Shown here in pieces: positions 63-7,413 of a stretch of DNA of 7,413 nt (positions are counted from its first letter, which is position 1; every line of letters starts with the position of its first letter). The translations under genes and the position numbers were made by a program. The DNA is from Candidatus Mcinerneyibacteriota bacterium. GTDB lineage: Bacteria; AUK180; JAQVHJ01. Under the pieces are notes generated by a model. The model worked only from the letters and a program-made list of their open reading frames with translations. It was not told the origin of the DNA and made no database searches. The stretch covers positions 1 through 7,413 of the forward strand of contig DAOVMD010000141.1 of the NCBI GenBank assembly GCA_030630935.1, given 5' to 3'.

Positions 63-89
63 GTCATTGTCCCGACGCGTCGGGATGAC
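63..89. repeat. Perfect 16-bp palindrome with extended arms
   Basis: TCCCGACGCGTCGGGA at 70-85 is a perfect palindrome. The arms extend through GTCA (63-66) pairing with TGAC (86-89), leaving a 3-base bulge (67-69). As a perfect palindrome it has no free loop unless the central bases open. No T-run follows, so it is a poor intrinsic terminator. It looks like the core of a dispersed intergenic repeat or a protein-binding site, and which of these is not decidable here. Confidence 0.75.
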
Positions 90-529: not shown

Positions 530-3103
530 ATGAAAAAGAGTTTTAAAGATTATGATTTCTTAGAGGTTATCGGAAAAGGCGGTATGGCAGTCCTTTATAA
601 AGGCTATCAGAGGTCACTTGCAAGAAATGTAGCAATAAAGGAGCTTCACACTTTTCTCCTCGATAACGAAAACTTTATAGATCGGTTTGAACGCGAGGCA
701 AAAGCATTAGCTTCTCTCATGCATGAAAATGTGGTTCAGGTTTTTGATTTTGGTAAGGAACAGGATTCTTATTATATTGTTATGGAGTATGTAGAGGGTT
801 TAGATTTAAAAGAACTTATGAAGAGTACCACGAAATTCCCCTTAGAAATTGCACTTATGGTTATCTACCAAATCTGTTCAGGTCTTGAGCATGCTCATTC
901 ATCCGGTATCACACACCGTGATATGAAGCCCGGAAATGTCTTGATGAACAAGTTTGGAGTAGTTAAGATTGCGGACTTTGGATTGGCTCAGGCAGCAAAC
1001 CTTGACTCTATTACTGTTACGGGTTCACTCATAGGAACCCCGGCATATATGTCTCCTGAGCAAGCAGCAGGAAAGAAAGTTGACCACCGGAGTGATATTT
1101 TTTCAGTTGGAGTTATGCTTTATGAAATGATATCGTCAAAGAAACCCTATGAAGGTGATTCTTATGCTTCAGTAATTGCAAAGATATTAACTCAAAAACC
1201 CCGTCAAATAATTGAGATTGAACCAAACCTTCCTCCAGACGTTATAAATATTATAAATAAATCACTTGCAAAAGATGTTGAGAAACGATATGCCGATATT
1301 GGAATAATGCTTCAGGATATGGAAAGTTACTTTGGATCAATAGGTATTACGCCAAATAAACGCTTAGTTAAAAAATTCATGGAGAACCCGGCTGAATACC
1401 AGGAGAAATACAAGGATAAATTTGTTAATGAGCACCTTAATAAGGGAATCTACTATATGCAGATGGGTCTTGAGAAATTTGATGATGCCTCAACAGAGTT
1501 CAATCGAGTTCTTTCTATAGACCCGAAAAATGAAAATGCAGAGAAATATCTTAAGGATATAAAAAAGAAACGCGAAGAATCAGGGATATTTGAACCACCC
1601 CCGAAACCGCCCGTAAGCGAAGCACTTGGTCCTGATGATGTCACCGGTCAGACTCCTACGCCTACTCCAATTCCCGAGACTCCGGCATCAACACTGACAC
1701 ACACCCAAACTCCAATTCCCGAGACTCCTAAATACACACCTATCGCACAAGCACCAAAGAAAAAGTCAAAAGTTCCATTAATTATTGGGTTTGTAATAAT
1801 TGCAATTATTGCTGTCCTTGCATTTATTCAATTTGGAACTGATTACAAACTAATTGTTTTAAGTGAAACTCCCACCACAAGTATTCATCTTGAATTTAAA
1901 CCAGAGGACGCAACTGTTTATTTAGATAATAAACCGGTCGGGAATAAGTCGCCTATTGATTTAAAAAACATTGAAATAGGTCAGCATACTTTAGAAATTA
2001 AGAAAGAAGGGTATACGGGTGAAAAGATGGAGATTGAGCTTCTTAATGACCGACCTTTTAAAAAGATATATGAGTTGGAGAAGATCCCTGCAGAAAAACC
2101 TAAAGCCATATCCGTAAACGTCACAACAGACCCACCCAATGCAAAGGTAATTCTTGATGGGAAAAAGGAGATCATGTCACCGGGGAAATTTGAGAACGTG
2201 AAGCCGGGACTACATATATTGACCATTAAGTATGAGCATAAACCGGGAATAATTATTGAGAAAGAGAAATCATTCACTGCAAAACCAGGAGATGTTCTTG
2301 ATTACCAGATTGATTTGAAAAAAGACCTGGATAAAATTTTAAAAACATCATTAACGATTATAAGCAAACCCTCGGGAGCAAAGATATATAGGAACGGGAA
2401 ATATATCGGTAAAAAAACACCTATTCAAACTTCCCAATACACTCCGGGGAAATATACTTTTAAATTTATCAAGACCGGGTATATAACAAGGGAGATGACA
2501 TTTGAAGTTAAACCAAATATCGCTAATAAAATTAATGTTACCCTTCAGAAATTACCTGTTGATAAACCACCCGAACCGGAACCGGAGCCGGAACCCGAGC
2601 CGGGACCCGATGAACCGGAACCGCCACTGCAGCCACCTCCGCCACCACCAGTTGTTCCAAAAACCGCATTCTTAAAAATTAAAGTTGTTCCCTGGGCAAA
2701 AATTTATATTGACGGAAAATATTTTGACACTACACCTATCTCAAAATCGATTGAAGTTAAGACAGGAAGCCATACAATTAAAGCAGCCAATCCTGGATTT
2801 GAAGTTTGGGAAGAGACAATTGATTTCCCGGGTGGAAAAACAATTACTAAAAAAATTACTCTAAAGAAAAAAGCTGCCCCTGTTTCATCAAAAGGATTTT
2901 TAAAGATCACTGTATCACCTTGGGCGAAATTGTATATTGATGGAAATTATATAGATACCACTCCTATTGGAAAACCCATTCCTCTCTCAGAAGGAACGCA
3001 TAAAATCAAGCTGGAAAATCCAGGTAGAAAGATTCATGAAGAAGAGATTGAGATTAAGAGTGGAGAAATTTTAGAAAAGAATATTAAATTATTATTTAAA
3101 TAA
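530..3103 (+). CDS. Transmembrane Ser/Thr protein kinase with five PEGA domains
   Basis: This is an 857-residue eukaryotic-like (Hanks-type) Ser/Thr kinase, predicted in the inner membrane with its N-terminus in the cytoplasm. The kinase domain spans about residues 8-268: glycine loop GKGGMA (15-20), catalytic Lys37 (VAIK), helix-C Glu56, HRDMKPGN with Asp131 and Asn136, DFG (149-151), GTPAYMSPEQ (169-178) and Asp189. All key residues are present, so it should be active. A TPR-like segment follows (about 297-345), then a Pro/Thr-rich linker (355-408), a basic stretch and one membrane helix (about 415-434). The extracytoplasmic part carries five PEGA-type beta-domains (about 452-516, 526-596, 606-673, 712-778, 789-856), with a Glu-Pro/poly-Pro spacer (680-710) between the third and fourth. 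PEGA domains are usually extracellular binding modules, and the ligand here is unknown. The start is chosen because the kinase fold begins at residue 8; the ribosome site is weak (GGA, 521-523). It is the first gene of a likely four-gene operon. Its substrates are unknown. Confidence 0.96.
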   Translation: MKKSFKDYDFLEVIGKGGMAVLYKGYQRSLARNVAIKELHTFLLDNENFIDRFEREAKALASLMHENVVQVFDFGKEQDSYYIVMEYVEGLDLKELMKSTTKFPLEIALMVIYQICSGLEHAHSSGITHRDMKPGNVLMNKFGVVKIADFGLAQAANLDSITVTGSLIGTPAYMSPEQAAGKKVDHRSDIFSVGVMLYEMISSKKPYEGDSYASVIAKILTQKPRQIIEIEPNLPPDVINIINKSLAKDVEKRYADIGIMLQDMESYFGSIGITPNKRLVKKFMENPAEYQEKYKDKFVNEHLNKGIYYMQMGLEKFDDASTEFNRVLSIDPKNENAEKYLKDIKKKREESGIFEPPPKPPVSEALGPDDVTGQTPTPTPIPETPASTLTHTQTPIPETPKYTPIAQAPKKKSKVPLIIGFVIIAIIAVLAFIQFGTDYKLIVLSETPTTSIHLEFKPEDATVYLDNKPVGNKSPIDLKNIEIGQHTLEIKKEGYTGEKMEIELLNDRPFKKIYELEKIPAEKPKAISVNVTTDPPNAKVILDGKKEIMSPGKFENVKPGLHILTIKYEHKPGIIIEKEKSFTAKPGDVLDYQIDLKKDLDKILKTSLTIISKPSGAKIYRNGKYIGKKTPIQTSQYTPGKYTFKFIKTGYITREMTFEVKPNIANKINVTLQKLPVDKPPEPEPEPEPEPGPDEPEPPLQPPPPPPVVPKTAFLKIKVVPWAKIYIDGKYFDTTPISKSIEVKTGSHTIKAANPGFEVWEETIDFPGGKTITKKITLKKKAAPVSSKGFLKITVSPWAKLYIDGNYIDTTPIGKPIPLSEGTHKIKLENPGRKIHEEEIEIKSGEILEKNIKLLFK
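1664..1728 (+). repeat. 20-bp direct repeat in the Thr-Pro linker
   Basis: Identical 20-bp copies at 1664-1683 and 1709-1728 (45 bp apart, in frame) each encode the residues TPIPETP. They lie in the Pro/Thr-rich linker between the TPR-like segment and the membrane helix of the kinase. Slippage or local duplication is the likely origin. Copy number could vary between strains without a frameshift, because the period is a multiple of three. Confidence 0.85.
2567..2659 (+). repeat. GC-rich Glu-Pro / poly-Pro coding repeat
   Basis: This encodes kinase residues 680-710: alternating Pro-Glu, then a run of six prolines. The DNA is built of CCGGAA/CCGGAG/CCCGAG units, clearly richer in GC than the surrounding gene. 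The peptide should form a stiff, extended spacer that separates the first three PEGA domains from the last two. It is also prone to length change by slippage in steps of two residues. Confidence 0.8.
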
Positions 3104-3165: not shown

Positions 3166-3972
3166 ATGCGTAGATTAACTCTTATCATTTCATTGGTATT
3201 AATATTCTCAATTGCAGCATTAGCTGTATCAGATTTTGAGAAGGCACTTGAGAATGCAAAGATTTATTATGATCAGGGTGATTTCACAAAGTCAATTGAA
3301 GAACTTCAGAAAGCTATGAAAACTCTTGAAAGTCAAAATAATGACGATAAAATTGAGGCATATAAATACCTCGGCTTTTCCTACGTTGCATTTGGCGAGA
3401 AGGAGAAAGCAAAAGTAGAATTTAAGAAAGTCATCAAATTGAAACCCAGCATGAAATTAGATGCAACGATTGTCTCCCCCAAGATAATCGCAGTGTTTGC
3501 AGAAGCCCGGGCTGAATTGGAAGCAGAAGGTTTTGATTTCACTCAACCTGTATCAATCAATCCAGTCCCAACTCCGCAACCGCGAGTTCCCGGACAGATC
3601 ACAAAGAGCGGAGCATTCTTCCGTTCCCTTTTCATTCCCGGTTTAGGTCAGATCTATAAAGGCCAGAAAACCAAAGGCTATGTAATTATGGGTTCAGGAG
3701 TTGTCTTTTTAGGAGCGACCTTAGGTGCAATGGGTGATTATAACGACAAAAAAGATGCTTATGAAAGTGCCGAATATAATGCTGATTTTGAAAAGTTATT
3801 TAAGGACTATGAAGATGCCGGGTCAAAAGCAACTGCAATGGCAACGATTACCGGTGTAATTTGGATGTATAATATTATTGATGCATCATTCTTTTCATTC
3901 GGACCAAGTACAAATTTAAAAGTAAATCCTGATTTTGGTAAGCCAGGTTTAAAACTCCAAATTAAATTCTAA
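3166..3972 (+). CDS. Envelope TPR protein with DUF5683-like membrane domain
   Basis: A 268-residue protein with a cleavable-type signal peptide (basic MRR, then a hydrophobic stretch to about residue 20 ending ALA). Two TPR-like helical hairpins follow: about 23-56 (IYYDQGDFTKSIEELQKA) and 63-97 (YLGFSYVAFGEKEKAKVEF). After a Pro-rich linker (131-143) comes SLFIPGLGQIYKGQKTKGY (154-172), which resembles the PGLGQIYNGQ signature at the start of DUF5683-type domains in Bacteroidota and relatives. Two hydrophobic helices follow (about 172-190 and 222-243), and the C-terminus ends in phenylalanine. I start it at 3166 because the ATG there has an ideal AGGAGG (3155-3160) and gives a clean signal peptide; a start at 3118 would place charged residues ahead of it and has no ribosome site. 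It lies 62 bp after the kinase and 45 bp before the first lipoprotein. The function is unknown. The TPRs suggest a protein-binding scaffold in the periplasm, perhaps a partner of the kinase PEGA region (inference). Confidence 0.9.
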   Translation: MRRLTLIISLVLIFSIAALAVSDFEKALENAKIYYDQGDFTKSIEELQKAMKTLESQNNDDKIEAYKYLGFSYVAFGEKEKAKVEFKKVIKLKPSMKLDATIVSPKIIAVFAEARAELEAEGFDFTQPVSINPVPTPQPRVPGQITKSGAFFRSLFIPGLGQIYKGQKTKGYVIMGSGVVFLGATLGAMGDYNDKKDAYESAEYNADFEKLFKDYEDAGSKATAMATITGVIWMYNIIDASFFSFGPSTNLKVNPDFGKPGLKLQIKF

Positions 3973-4017: not shown

Positions 4018-4974
4018 ATGAAAAAGATTATTACATTAGCGATCATTTTAACCTTACTCAATTTTATGATAGGGTGTTTTGATGTCGAGAGAAATAACCC
4101 GTTTGACCCGGATTCTGATCTTCCTGATTCAGAAAAAATGGTTACAGTAAAAGGATTTACTTACCGCGGTTATTCAGACCATATTTTACCTAATGTTGAG
4201 GTAACAATCGGAGGTAAAACCACTGTCTCAGATTCAGGTGGTTTCTATTCAATTGATTTAATGCGGGGAACTCATAATCTCAGAGCCAGTAAAGGCGGTT
4301 GGACAACTGAAGAATATCAAATTAATGTTAATGCAAAAGCTACTGCAACTCAGTACGAAGATATTAGTATGTTTATCTGGTATGAATACTGGGAAGCATT
4401 TAATCCCGGCGAGATCCCGGAAAAACACTGGTGTCACAATCCTGGAATTCAAGGATATAATGTGATTAATAATAATGATGTCTTGCAAATTGGTATATAT
4501 AACGAGTCTAACAATATGGATTCAACTACAACATGGCTGCCATATTGGGATAATAAAACTACACCTATTAATAATGTTCTAATTGGACTTAGATTTGATA
4601 GTACTTACTATAGTGAAACATCTATGCTATTTTGTTTTGAAGATGCGACTTCTATGCATATTATTAGTGTTGAGTTTTACTCGGATATATTATATGTTAA
4701 CTCATCAGCAGGTGCATCAGTAATTGTTGAAGATCAACCTAATAATATTACAAACAGAAATATTATGGTTGAATTCCGAGTTAATCCAAGTAATCGAACA
4801 AAGGGAACTGTTTATTTTTATAACCATAACGGGGATTCTATATTTACTTCAGCAGATGTAACATTTACTGTAGATTTTAATCCAGAGACCTTGAGGTTTC
4901 TGATATTCGATGCTTGGGGAGCAGGATCAGGTGTATGGGGAATGATGCAAGTTCTATTTGTGGAATTCTTTTAA
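4018..4974 (+). CDS. Lipoprotein A: carboxypeptidase-regulatory-like domain plus divergent C-terminal beta domain
   Basis: A 318-residue lipoprotein. Its type II signal peptide ends in MIGC, so Cys20 is the predicted lipidated residue; the lipobox has Met at -3 rather than the usual Leu. Residues 20-46 form an acidic tether containing NNPFDPDSD and are identical to those of the next gene. Residues about 41-118 fit a carboxypeptidase regulatory-like beta-sandwich (VTVKG..Y..., GGKTTVSDSGGFYSID, GTHNLRA). The C-terminal 200 residues are rich in beta-strand patterns and aromatics (WYEYWEAF, NVLIGLRF, VEFRVNPSN) and may be a jelly-roll or lectin-like domain, but I do not recognise the family. AGGAG (4007-4011) lies 6 nt before the ATG. 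The likely place is the outer membrane, with the C-terminal domain as a binding module. It may be co-transcribed with the kinase. Confidence 0.92.
   Translation: MKKIITLAIILTLLNFMIGCFDVERNNPFDPDSDLPDSEKMVTVKGFTYRGYSDHILPNVEVTIGGKTTVSDSGGFYSIDLMRGTHNLRASKGGWTTEEYQINVNAKATATQYEDISMFIWYEYWEAFNPGEIPEKHWCHNPGIQGYNVINNNDVLQIGIYNESNNMDSTTTWLPYWDNKTTPINNVLIGLRFDSTYYSETSMLFCFEDATSMHIISVEFYSDILYVNSSAGASVIVEDQPNNITNRNIMVEFRVNPSNRTKGTVYFYNHNGDSIFTSADVTFTVDFNPETLRFLIFDAWGAGSGVWGMMQVLFVEFF
4075..4155 (+). repeat. 81-bp near-identical block, copy 1
   Basis: It matches 5100-5180 in 80 of 81 positions. The only difference is T4116 versus A5141, a silent change in a Ser codon (TCT/TCA). The block begins within the lipidated Cys codon and ends after the codon for Gly46 of both lipoproteins. 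Identity stops abruptly at both ends. Confidence 0.95.
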
Positions 4975-5042
4975 GTGATAGGATAGAGTAAAACTGAAAT
5001 ATAAAACAAGTTATTCATTATAAAAAAATGGAGGTATCGGTT

Positions 5043-6026
5043 ATGAAGAAAGTGTTAATTTTAACTATTGCTCTTATTTTCGCAATCATTTTGACCGGCT
5101 GTTTTGATGTCGAGAGAAATAACCCGTTTGACCCGGATTCAGATCTTCCTGATTCAGAAAAAATGGTTACAGTAAAAGGACATACTTACAGGGGGTATTC
5201 AGACTCAATCATAGCGGGTGTAAATATTACAATTGGAGATAAAACCACTGTCTCTGATTCCAGTGGTTACTATTCAATCGATATAATGCCCGGAACATAT
5301 ATGTTAACTGCAGCTAATACTAACTGGATAACAGAACAATATCAAATCACTGTAAATTCGGCAAGAAAAACAAGTTCGCAGCAGGAAGACATTAGTATGT
5401 TTTTGTATTTAGATTATTTTGATACTTATACTGTAGGTGATGCCCCAACTTCACCTTGGTATTATGATATATATACAACTTCGGGCACAGGACATGTTCT
5501 GATTTATGATACACCTTATAACGAAATGAATTTATTCCTTGATGATTACTATGATGGCAATGCCTATGTCTCCGCTTGGATGTTTCCTACAGATGTTCAA
5601 AATGTCGGTGTAGAAAATATAGTTATCGGTTTACTGTTTCACAAGAAGAACAATACATTTACTGAAACCGGTTTTAATCTAATGTACGGTGCTAACGAAT
5701 TCTTATATCTTTCTATATCTGAAACTGCTGCTGGAAATGGAATAATTAAATTTATTGACCCCTCGGGAACTACTATTATTACAAGTTTATTTGACAAATG
5801 GGAAGAGGTTATATATTTTGAGGTTGAAATTTACCCAACAAACACTAAATTGGGAGAATTATGGATTTCTGATAATAATGGAATCCTTTTTGGCTCCCCA
5901 TATAATCTTGATTTTGGTACCAACATTAATGATGTAGATTTAATTAATTTTTTTATAAATGTAAACGACTTAGCTGTACCACCATTACTCGGAGAATTAA
6001 CGGTTGAATCTCTTGAAATATATTGA
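5043..6026 (+). CDS. Lipoprotein B, tandem paralogue of lipoprotein A
   Basis: A 327-residue lipoprotein with a textbook LTGC lipobox (Cys20). Residues 20-46 are identical to lipoprotein A. Hand alignment gives about 60% identity over residues 47-105 (the carboxypeptidase-regulatory-like sandwich: TYRGYSD, KTTVSDSSGYYSID, PGTYMLTA), and then similarity falls to scattered positions. The C-terminal part keeps the same order of patterns as A (YLDYFDTYTVGDAP, NIVIGLLF, YFEVEIYPTN, INFFINVND), so the two C-terminal domains are probably homologous but fast-diverging. The start is placed at 5043 because GGAGGT (5030-5035) lies 7 nt upstream. The ATG at 5028 overlaps that ribosome site and would only add five residues before the signal peptide. 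It follows lipoprotein A by 68 bp and is the last gene of the plus-strand cluster. It is likely an outer-membrane surface or periplasmic binding protein; the ligand is unknown. Confidence 0.92.
   Translation: MKKVLILTIALIFAIILTGCFDVERNNPFDPDSDLPDSEKMVTVKGHTYRGYSDSIIAGVNITIGDKTTVSDSSGYYSIDIMPGTYMLTAANTNWITEQYQITVNSARKTSSQQEDISMFLYLDYFDTYTVGDAPTSPWYYDIYTTSGTGHVLIYDTPYNEMNLFLDDYYDGNAYVSAWMFPTDVQNVGVENIVIGLLFHKKNNTFTETGFNLMYGANEFLYLSISETAAGNGIIKFIDPSGTTIITSLFDKWEEVIYFEVEIYPTNTKLGELWISDNNGILFGSPYNLDFGTNINDVDLINFFINVNDLAVPPLLGELTVESLEIY
5100..5180 (+). repeat. 81-bp near-identical block, copy 2
   Basis: Second copy of the block at 4075-4155, in direct orientation 1025 bp away, with one silent mismatch (A5141). 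It encodes the membrane-proximal tether of lipoprotein B. Confidence 0.95.
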
Positions 6027-6295: not shown

Positions 6296-7413
6296 TCATT
6301 CTGACCTTCCATACTTATAAACCAAATCCGTACTACTATCAACTGCATATATATTGCCTTGCGAATCGATACCAATTGCATATATAGAAGTTAATCCCGA
6401 ACAAACCTCACCTAAATAATTACCTGTTGAATTATAAATTCTTATCGTATTAAGATCGTGGTCAGAGAAAAATATAATATTATTCTTTTTATTTATAGCA
6501 ATTTCATCCGGATAATAGACTGACCAAGACATAATAAAATTTCCATTTGAATCATATTTCGAAATTAATTTGGAGTTTACACTTGCAACATAAACATTAT
6601 CTTTACCATCAATTGCCATTGATTTTGAATTTGTTTCTATGCTCCAGCTTGTTATATAAACTCCTTGAGAAGTATATTTTTTTATCTTTGCATCCTGGTA
6701 ATCAAGAACATATACATTATCTATGCTATCCACGTCAATAGACATTGGTTTTTGAAATTGATTATTACCTGATCCTGAGCTGCCCCAGGTCAAAACAAAA
6801 TTCCCTTGAACGTTAAATTTCTGAATTCGATCGTTTCCAGAGTCGGTAATATATATATTACCTCCGCTATCAATTGCGATATCAATAGGATCATCAAACT
6901 CACCATCACCGGTTCCAGATACTCCCCAGGTTTTTAAAAATGTCCCATCTAATGCAAATTTTATAACACAATCTTTAACAAAATCTACTATAAAAATATT
7001 TCGTCCTGAACATTCAGCTCCATATGAAAGTTGAAACTGACCGGGTCCGGAACCACCCCAAGATTTTATAAATTCAAATTCATATTTCAAATATCCGTAA
7101 TCCGATGTGCTGAGTTCACTGAACCCAAAGTTAAATGCATAGGCTTTAACTTTATAGAAATATGTCGCCCCCACATCAATACTACTATCTTCATAGCTCA
7201 CGTTGGAAGAATATCCAATGTCGGAATAGGTTCCGGTTGAGGTTAAAGCTCGATAAATATAGTAGTTATCCGCACCATTAACCGCGTCCCAGGTAATGGT
7301 AATCTGGTTATTATCCGTACCATTAGTCGCCGCAATGTTCTGAGGGGTAGTGAAAACAGTGTACCCGGTATCGTAAATACTGTATGCACTGGTCTCAGGA
7401 ACTGTATTTCTCC
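6296..7413 (-). CDS. C-terminal part of an FN3 / six-bladed NHL-repeat protein (5' end outside window)
   Basis: The frame is open from the right edge (first full codon at 7411) to the TGA at 6296-6298, giving 371 visible residues. Residues 1-17 end in YDTGY and look like the tail of a preceding FN3 domain. Residues 23-107 are a complete fibronectin type III domain (Trp41, NYYIYRA at 49-55, Tyr73, TYFYKVKAY at 83-91) ending SDYGY, so the FN3 repeats appear to be tandem with a period of 90 residues. Residues about 110-371 are six NHL-type blades with the pattern GNIYITDSGNDRIQKF..GNFVLTWG (cores near 137, 184, 231, 271, 310 and 352). The first strand (EFEFIKSWG) probably closes the last blade. 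The chain ends three residues after the last blade, with no sorting domain. A GTG at 7201 is not the start, because the FN3 domain runs through it. It is probably a large secreted or surface adhesion/binding protein, transcribed toward the lipoprotein cluster. Confidence 0.92.
   Translation of the reverse strand, partial: RNTVPETSAYSIYDTGYTVFTTPQNIAATNGTDNNQITITWDAVNGADNYYIYRALTSTGTYSDIGYSSNVSYEDSSIDVGATYFYKVKAYAFNFGFSELSTSDYGYLKYEFEFIKSWGGSGPGQFQLSYGAECSGRNIFIVDFVKDCVIKFALDGTFLKTWGVSGTGDGEFDDPIDIAIDSGGNIYITDSGNDRIQKFNVQGNFVLTWGSSGSGNNQFQKPMSIDVDSIDNVYVLDYQDAKIKKYTSQGVYITSWSIETNSKSMAIDGKDNVYVASVNSKLISKYDSNGNFIMSWSVYYPDEIAINKKNNIIFFSDHDLNTIRIYNSTGNYLGEVCSGLTSIYAIGIDSQGNIYAVDSSTDLVYKYGRSE

Follow-up and report, generated by a model that had tools for sequence, protein, structure and literature searches.

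A short island of silent-site identity in two tandem lipoprotein genes of a Candidatus Mcinerneyibacteriota bacterium

Genes and repeats in the window

The window, that is, the whole stretch of DNA analysed here, is the entire 7,413-nucleotide contig C48, which belongs to a fragmented metagenome assembly of 471 contigs that is about 80% complete. It carries, on the forward strand, a gene for a Ser/Thr protein kinase with PEGA domains at 530-3103 (PF00069, E 2e-55; PF08308 in five stretches) and one for a TPR and DUF5683 protein at 3166-3972 (PF07719 and PF18935), the latter directly upstream of an array of two lipoprotein genes, A and B. The kinase gene, upstream of A and B, is part of the same conserved cluster, and the gene order is repeated in locus L016 of a relative. 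The TPR-DUF5683 protein is 66% identical to its counterpart in a genome of the same family; a search of the six other phylum genomes found relatives of it in every one, and they also occur in genome G007, where locus L017 encodes a kinase with PEGA-like C-terminal repeats near a related lipoprotein. A truncated, convergent ORF with NHL/beta-propeller repeats occupies window positions 6296-7411.

Gene A (4018-4974, forward strand, 318 aa) was delineated by ORF call, Pfam and a structure model, and gene B (5043-6026, forward strand, 327 aa) has the same layout. The start of B was taken as the ATG at 5043, while the ORF list begins it at 5028. The two are tandem neighbours in the same orientation, 1025 bp apart. 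At its ribosome-binding site and first codons (window 5024-5066), B matches paralogue D on another contig, C329, at 14/20 and 19/24 bases, and the neighbouring A less well (9/20 and 14/24 bases); given this D-like start, gene B may, to judge from its sequence, be a mosaic.

A palindromic intergenic repeat, TCCCGACGCGTCGGGATGA, lies at window positions 70-88 and is a dispersed REP-like element, with 45 copies in the genome at no more than one mismatch, 27 of them exact, and zero copies of a reversed control. Downstream of D, further direct repeats about 260-270 bp apart, including GAGCGAAGCGATGCT and CGGGATCTCCTCTCT, are likewise REP-like (L015, 2950-3350). An ORF beside the relative's lipoprotein array (L016, 291-1247) has the appearance of a putative REP-associated (Y1) transposase.

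A family of lipid-anchored proteins

The genome contains exactly four full-length members of the lipoprotein family, namely A and B in the window and the tandem pair C (367-1356) and D (1848-2825) on contig C329. A contig scan for close relatives returned a sole match, a metagenome-assembled genome of the same family but a different genus (G001; JAQVHJ010000118.1, locus L016), and the search of the phylum covered seven genomes. The G001 contig carries four more members, E-H, in tandem; immediately upstream of them lie the end of a PEGA protein and a TPR-DUF5683 gene, in an order that matches the window. The family proteins of this nearest relative show 26-38% protein identity, and all eight proteins align end to end, including homologous C-terminal domains. 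A and B are adjacent tandem paralogues within a family of lipid-anchored surface proteins that is old and has diverged strongly.

The eight proteins share one layout, consisting of a signal peptide with a lipobox (IGC or TGC), an acidic linker with the pattern C-F-x-x-x-R-N-N-x-[FY]-D-P-D, a carboxypeptidase-regulatory-like domain and a C-terminal domain. PF13620 matches residues 44-112 of A (E 6e-7) and a second paralogue (1e-6), both at 2-3 bits below the curated cut-off. In the AlphaFold2 model of A (pLDDT 76), the C-terminal domain resembles a ConA-like jelly roll; the best matches to residues 119-318 are GH16 glucanases (Z 14-16, rmsd about 3 Å), and L-type lectins are also among the fold matches. 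None of the eight proteins contains the GH16 catalytic motif E-x-D-x-(x)-E, so the domain is better described as lectin-like than as a GH16 enzyme. That these are lipid-anchored carbohydrate-binding proteins is a reasonable inference. The descriptive value is modest: a small, uncharacterised ConA-fold lipid-anchored family encoded beside a PEGA kinase and a TPR-DUF5683 protein within a single family of a phylum that has been sampled sparsely, whose anchors are better conserved than the putative binding domains.

Silent-site identity of the shared block and its flanks

An 81-bp block on the forward strand is shared by A (4075-4155; residues 20-46, running from the lipidated Cys up to where the regulatory-like domain begins) and B (5100-5180). 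As a preliminary description of this DNA had claimed, the two copies are identical at 80 of 81 bases; the only difference, T in A at window position 4116 and A in B at 5141 (TCT/TCA, Ser33), is silent. Silent identity was counted over residues common to A and B, excluding Met and Trp. Within the block 25 of 26 such codons are identical, compared with 37 of 74 elsewhere in the pair (Fisher P 8e-6). The latter figure combines the signal peptide (1/6), the next domain (25/40) and the C-terminal domain (11/28). Local codon usage would lead one to expect 11.9 identical codons among the 26, against the 25 observed (P about 7e-9). The excess of A-B identity in the block is not due to chance.

This island of silent-site identity is missing from every other pair. 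Over the same block, identical silent codons number 12/24 for both A-C and B-C and 11/19 for both A-D and B-D, and comparisons of E-H with A or B give 3-8 among 13-20 codons. The best 26-codon window in any other of the 28 pairs formed by the eight paralogues reaches 20/26. When A-B was tested by permutation for a tract of silent-site identity, P was 0.0002-0.0013, depending on the mismatch penalty; because the cross-genus pair D-F also reaches P of about 0.001, at a score of 14 versus 25 for A-B, this test is not decisive alone and the others weigh more.

The preliminary description presented the block as a sharp island, but its right edge is less sharp than was stated there. Upstream, the signal-peptide codons of A and B are 51% identical. 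The left edge is the nearest mismatch, one base upstream of the Cys codon (third base of Gly19), with no demonstrated breakpoint, and because the adjoining signal peptide is in any case diverged, no significance need be read into the island beginning exactly at the lipidated Cys. Downstream, A-B identity in 15-codon windows is 64-67% at residues 46-65, recovers to 80-87% over residues 61-85 and drops under 50% beyond about residue 121. This second raised stretch, seen by sliding-window identity at about residues 63-80 (4205-4259, forward strand; partner 5230-5284), has 80-87% nucleotide identity for A-B versus 51-71% for A-C and A-D; its silent identity (12/17 over residues 61-87) is not significant by itself. 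It may be left over from an exchange that was older or more extensive; alternatively, a closer relationship between the middle domains of A and B, which has 86/88 tree support, would explain it.

Outside the block, raw identity places B nearer to C than to A, both in shared residues of the C-terminal domain (55 vs 28) and in signal-peptide DNA (65% vs 51%), and the block is therefore at odds with its flanks. However, trees built from the regions flanking the block resolve too poorly to reject a pairing of A and B as sisters (AU p 0.21-0.31), and in a tree of just the middle domain A groups with B. Because the trees do not reject this sister relationship, the incongruence backs a conversion event only weakly.

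Origin of the block and comparison with known systems

The best explanation, to which we assign a probability of about 0.8, is a recent and short gene conversion between the adjacent genes A and B. This was one of the options raised in the preliminary description, and the contrast between 25/26 and 37/74 silent identity, together with the variation in C and D, supports it. A short stretch, at least the 81 bp between the codon of the lipidated Cys and the point where the next domain begins, would have been copied between A and B by non-reciprocal homologous recombination, with one silent mutation since the transfer. RecA-type recombination between neighbours about 1 kb apart would be the likely maker of the island. 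The block would have been a favoured site, as it is the best-conserved part of the family (the NNPFDPDSD linker) and, because of this, already offered the paralogues their longest stretches of homologous DNA. The exchange probably served no special function, and short conversion between tandem paralogues is, as a process, ordinary.

Two other options in the preliminary description were that selection on the DNA or RNA keeps the copies identical and that the block is a swappable cassette. Purifying selection on a regulatory element, RNA structure or early-codon choice would fit the block being the best-conserved stretch of the family, with 19-24 of its 26 residues also present in D and C. However, C, D and E-H differ freely at its silent sites, which means that the block is under no constraint at the DNA level, and no Rfam family matches anywhere in the window; this explanation is very unlikely. 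Even less credence can be given to a cassette in which a constant lipoprotein head acquires new C-terminal domains by grafting. The C-terminal domains of A and B are indeed far more diverged (39% nucleotide identity) than the head (99%), but they are homologous and align end to end, and the weakly detected other lipoproteins (C121 and C167) carry different heads. Further copies of the block do exist elsewhere in the genome: there are two, both on C329 and 79% and 76% identical, but they lie in full-length family members and none precedes an unrelated C-terminal domain. Genome-wide DNA, protein, pattern and profile searches confine the head to the four full-length members of this one family, and because it was never found before other domains, the cassette is removed for the available part of the genome (about 80% complete). 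In the G001 array, moreover, the four tandem heads have diverged at silent sites as much as the remainder of the genes, and the clearest sister pair, E-F, has silent identities of 8/19, 17/43 and 42/91 along its length; homogenised heads therefore do not characterise the family. No plasmid matches the block, leaving mobile spread unsupported, and IMG/VR contains no exact copy of its first 27 bases.

Somewhat less remote, yet still improbable, is the proposal that A or B is a recombinant hybrid from unequal crossing-over during expansion of the array, with the block as a remnant. Array size and composition vary between genomes (2+2 here, four in tandem in G001), the start of B resembles D (14/20 and 19/24 bases), and A and B share the second patch at residues 61-85. 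However, a simple crossover leaves one breakpoint, and an internal island with diverged flanks needs two. An assembly artefact, in which reads of one copy were used for both blocks, might be suspected in so fragmented a metagenome assembly, but a fixed difference is kept mid-block, both reading frames are intact and the exact runs are of 41 and 39 bases, which is below the k-mer lengths that assemblers usually apply in their final round; we consider it as doubtful as the cassette. A broader form of exchange, in which tandem lectin-like lipoproteins undergo repeated segmental transfer that keeps a constant, homogenised anchor beside fast-diverging binding domains, could cite the A-B head tract, the patch at residues 61-85 and the D-like start of B, but we regard it as unlikely, to about the same degree as the hybrid.

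A literature search on bacterial conversion of tandem lipoproteins turned up chiefly studies of Borrelia and of antigenic variation. The vlsE/vmp cassettes of Borrelia (reviewed in PMC4534519) resemble the present case in involving surface lipoproteins and segmental transfer between paralogues, but A and B share the constant head and not the variable part, are two apparently intact genes with their own starts rather than silent truncated cassettes, and give no sign of repeated switching. In this genome there are four full-length homologous genes, and not a constant piece joined to several different or silent variable pieces. The likeness to concerted evolution of prokaryotic paralogues (PMC6053082) is that paralogues of one genome are more similar than expected, here over the block only; the difference is that this concerns one pair and one short block, with the other paralogues and the relative's array not homogenised. 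Overall, the closest parallel is gene conversion between bacterial tandem paralogues, with which A and B share a short tract of silent-site near-identity, diverged flanks and a neighbouring, same-strand arrangement, and from which they differ in nothing essential.
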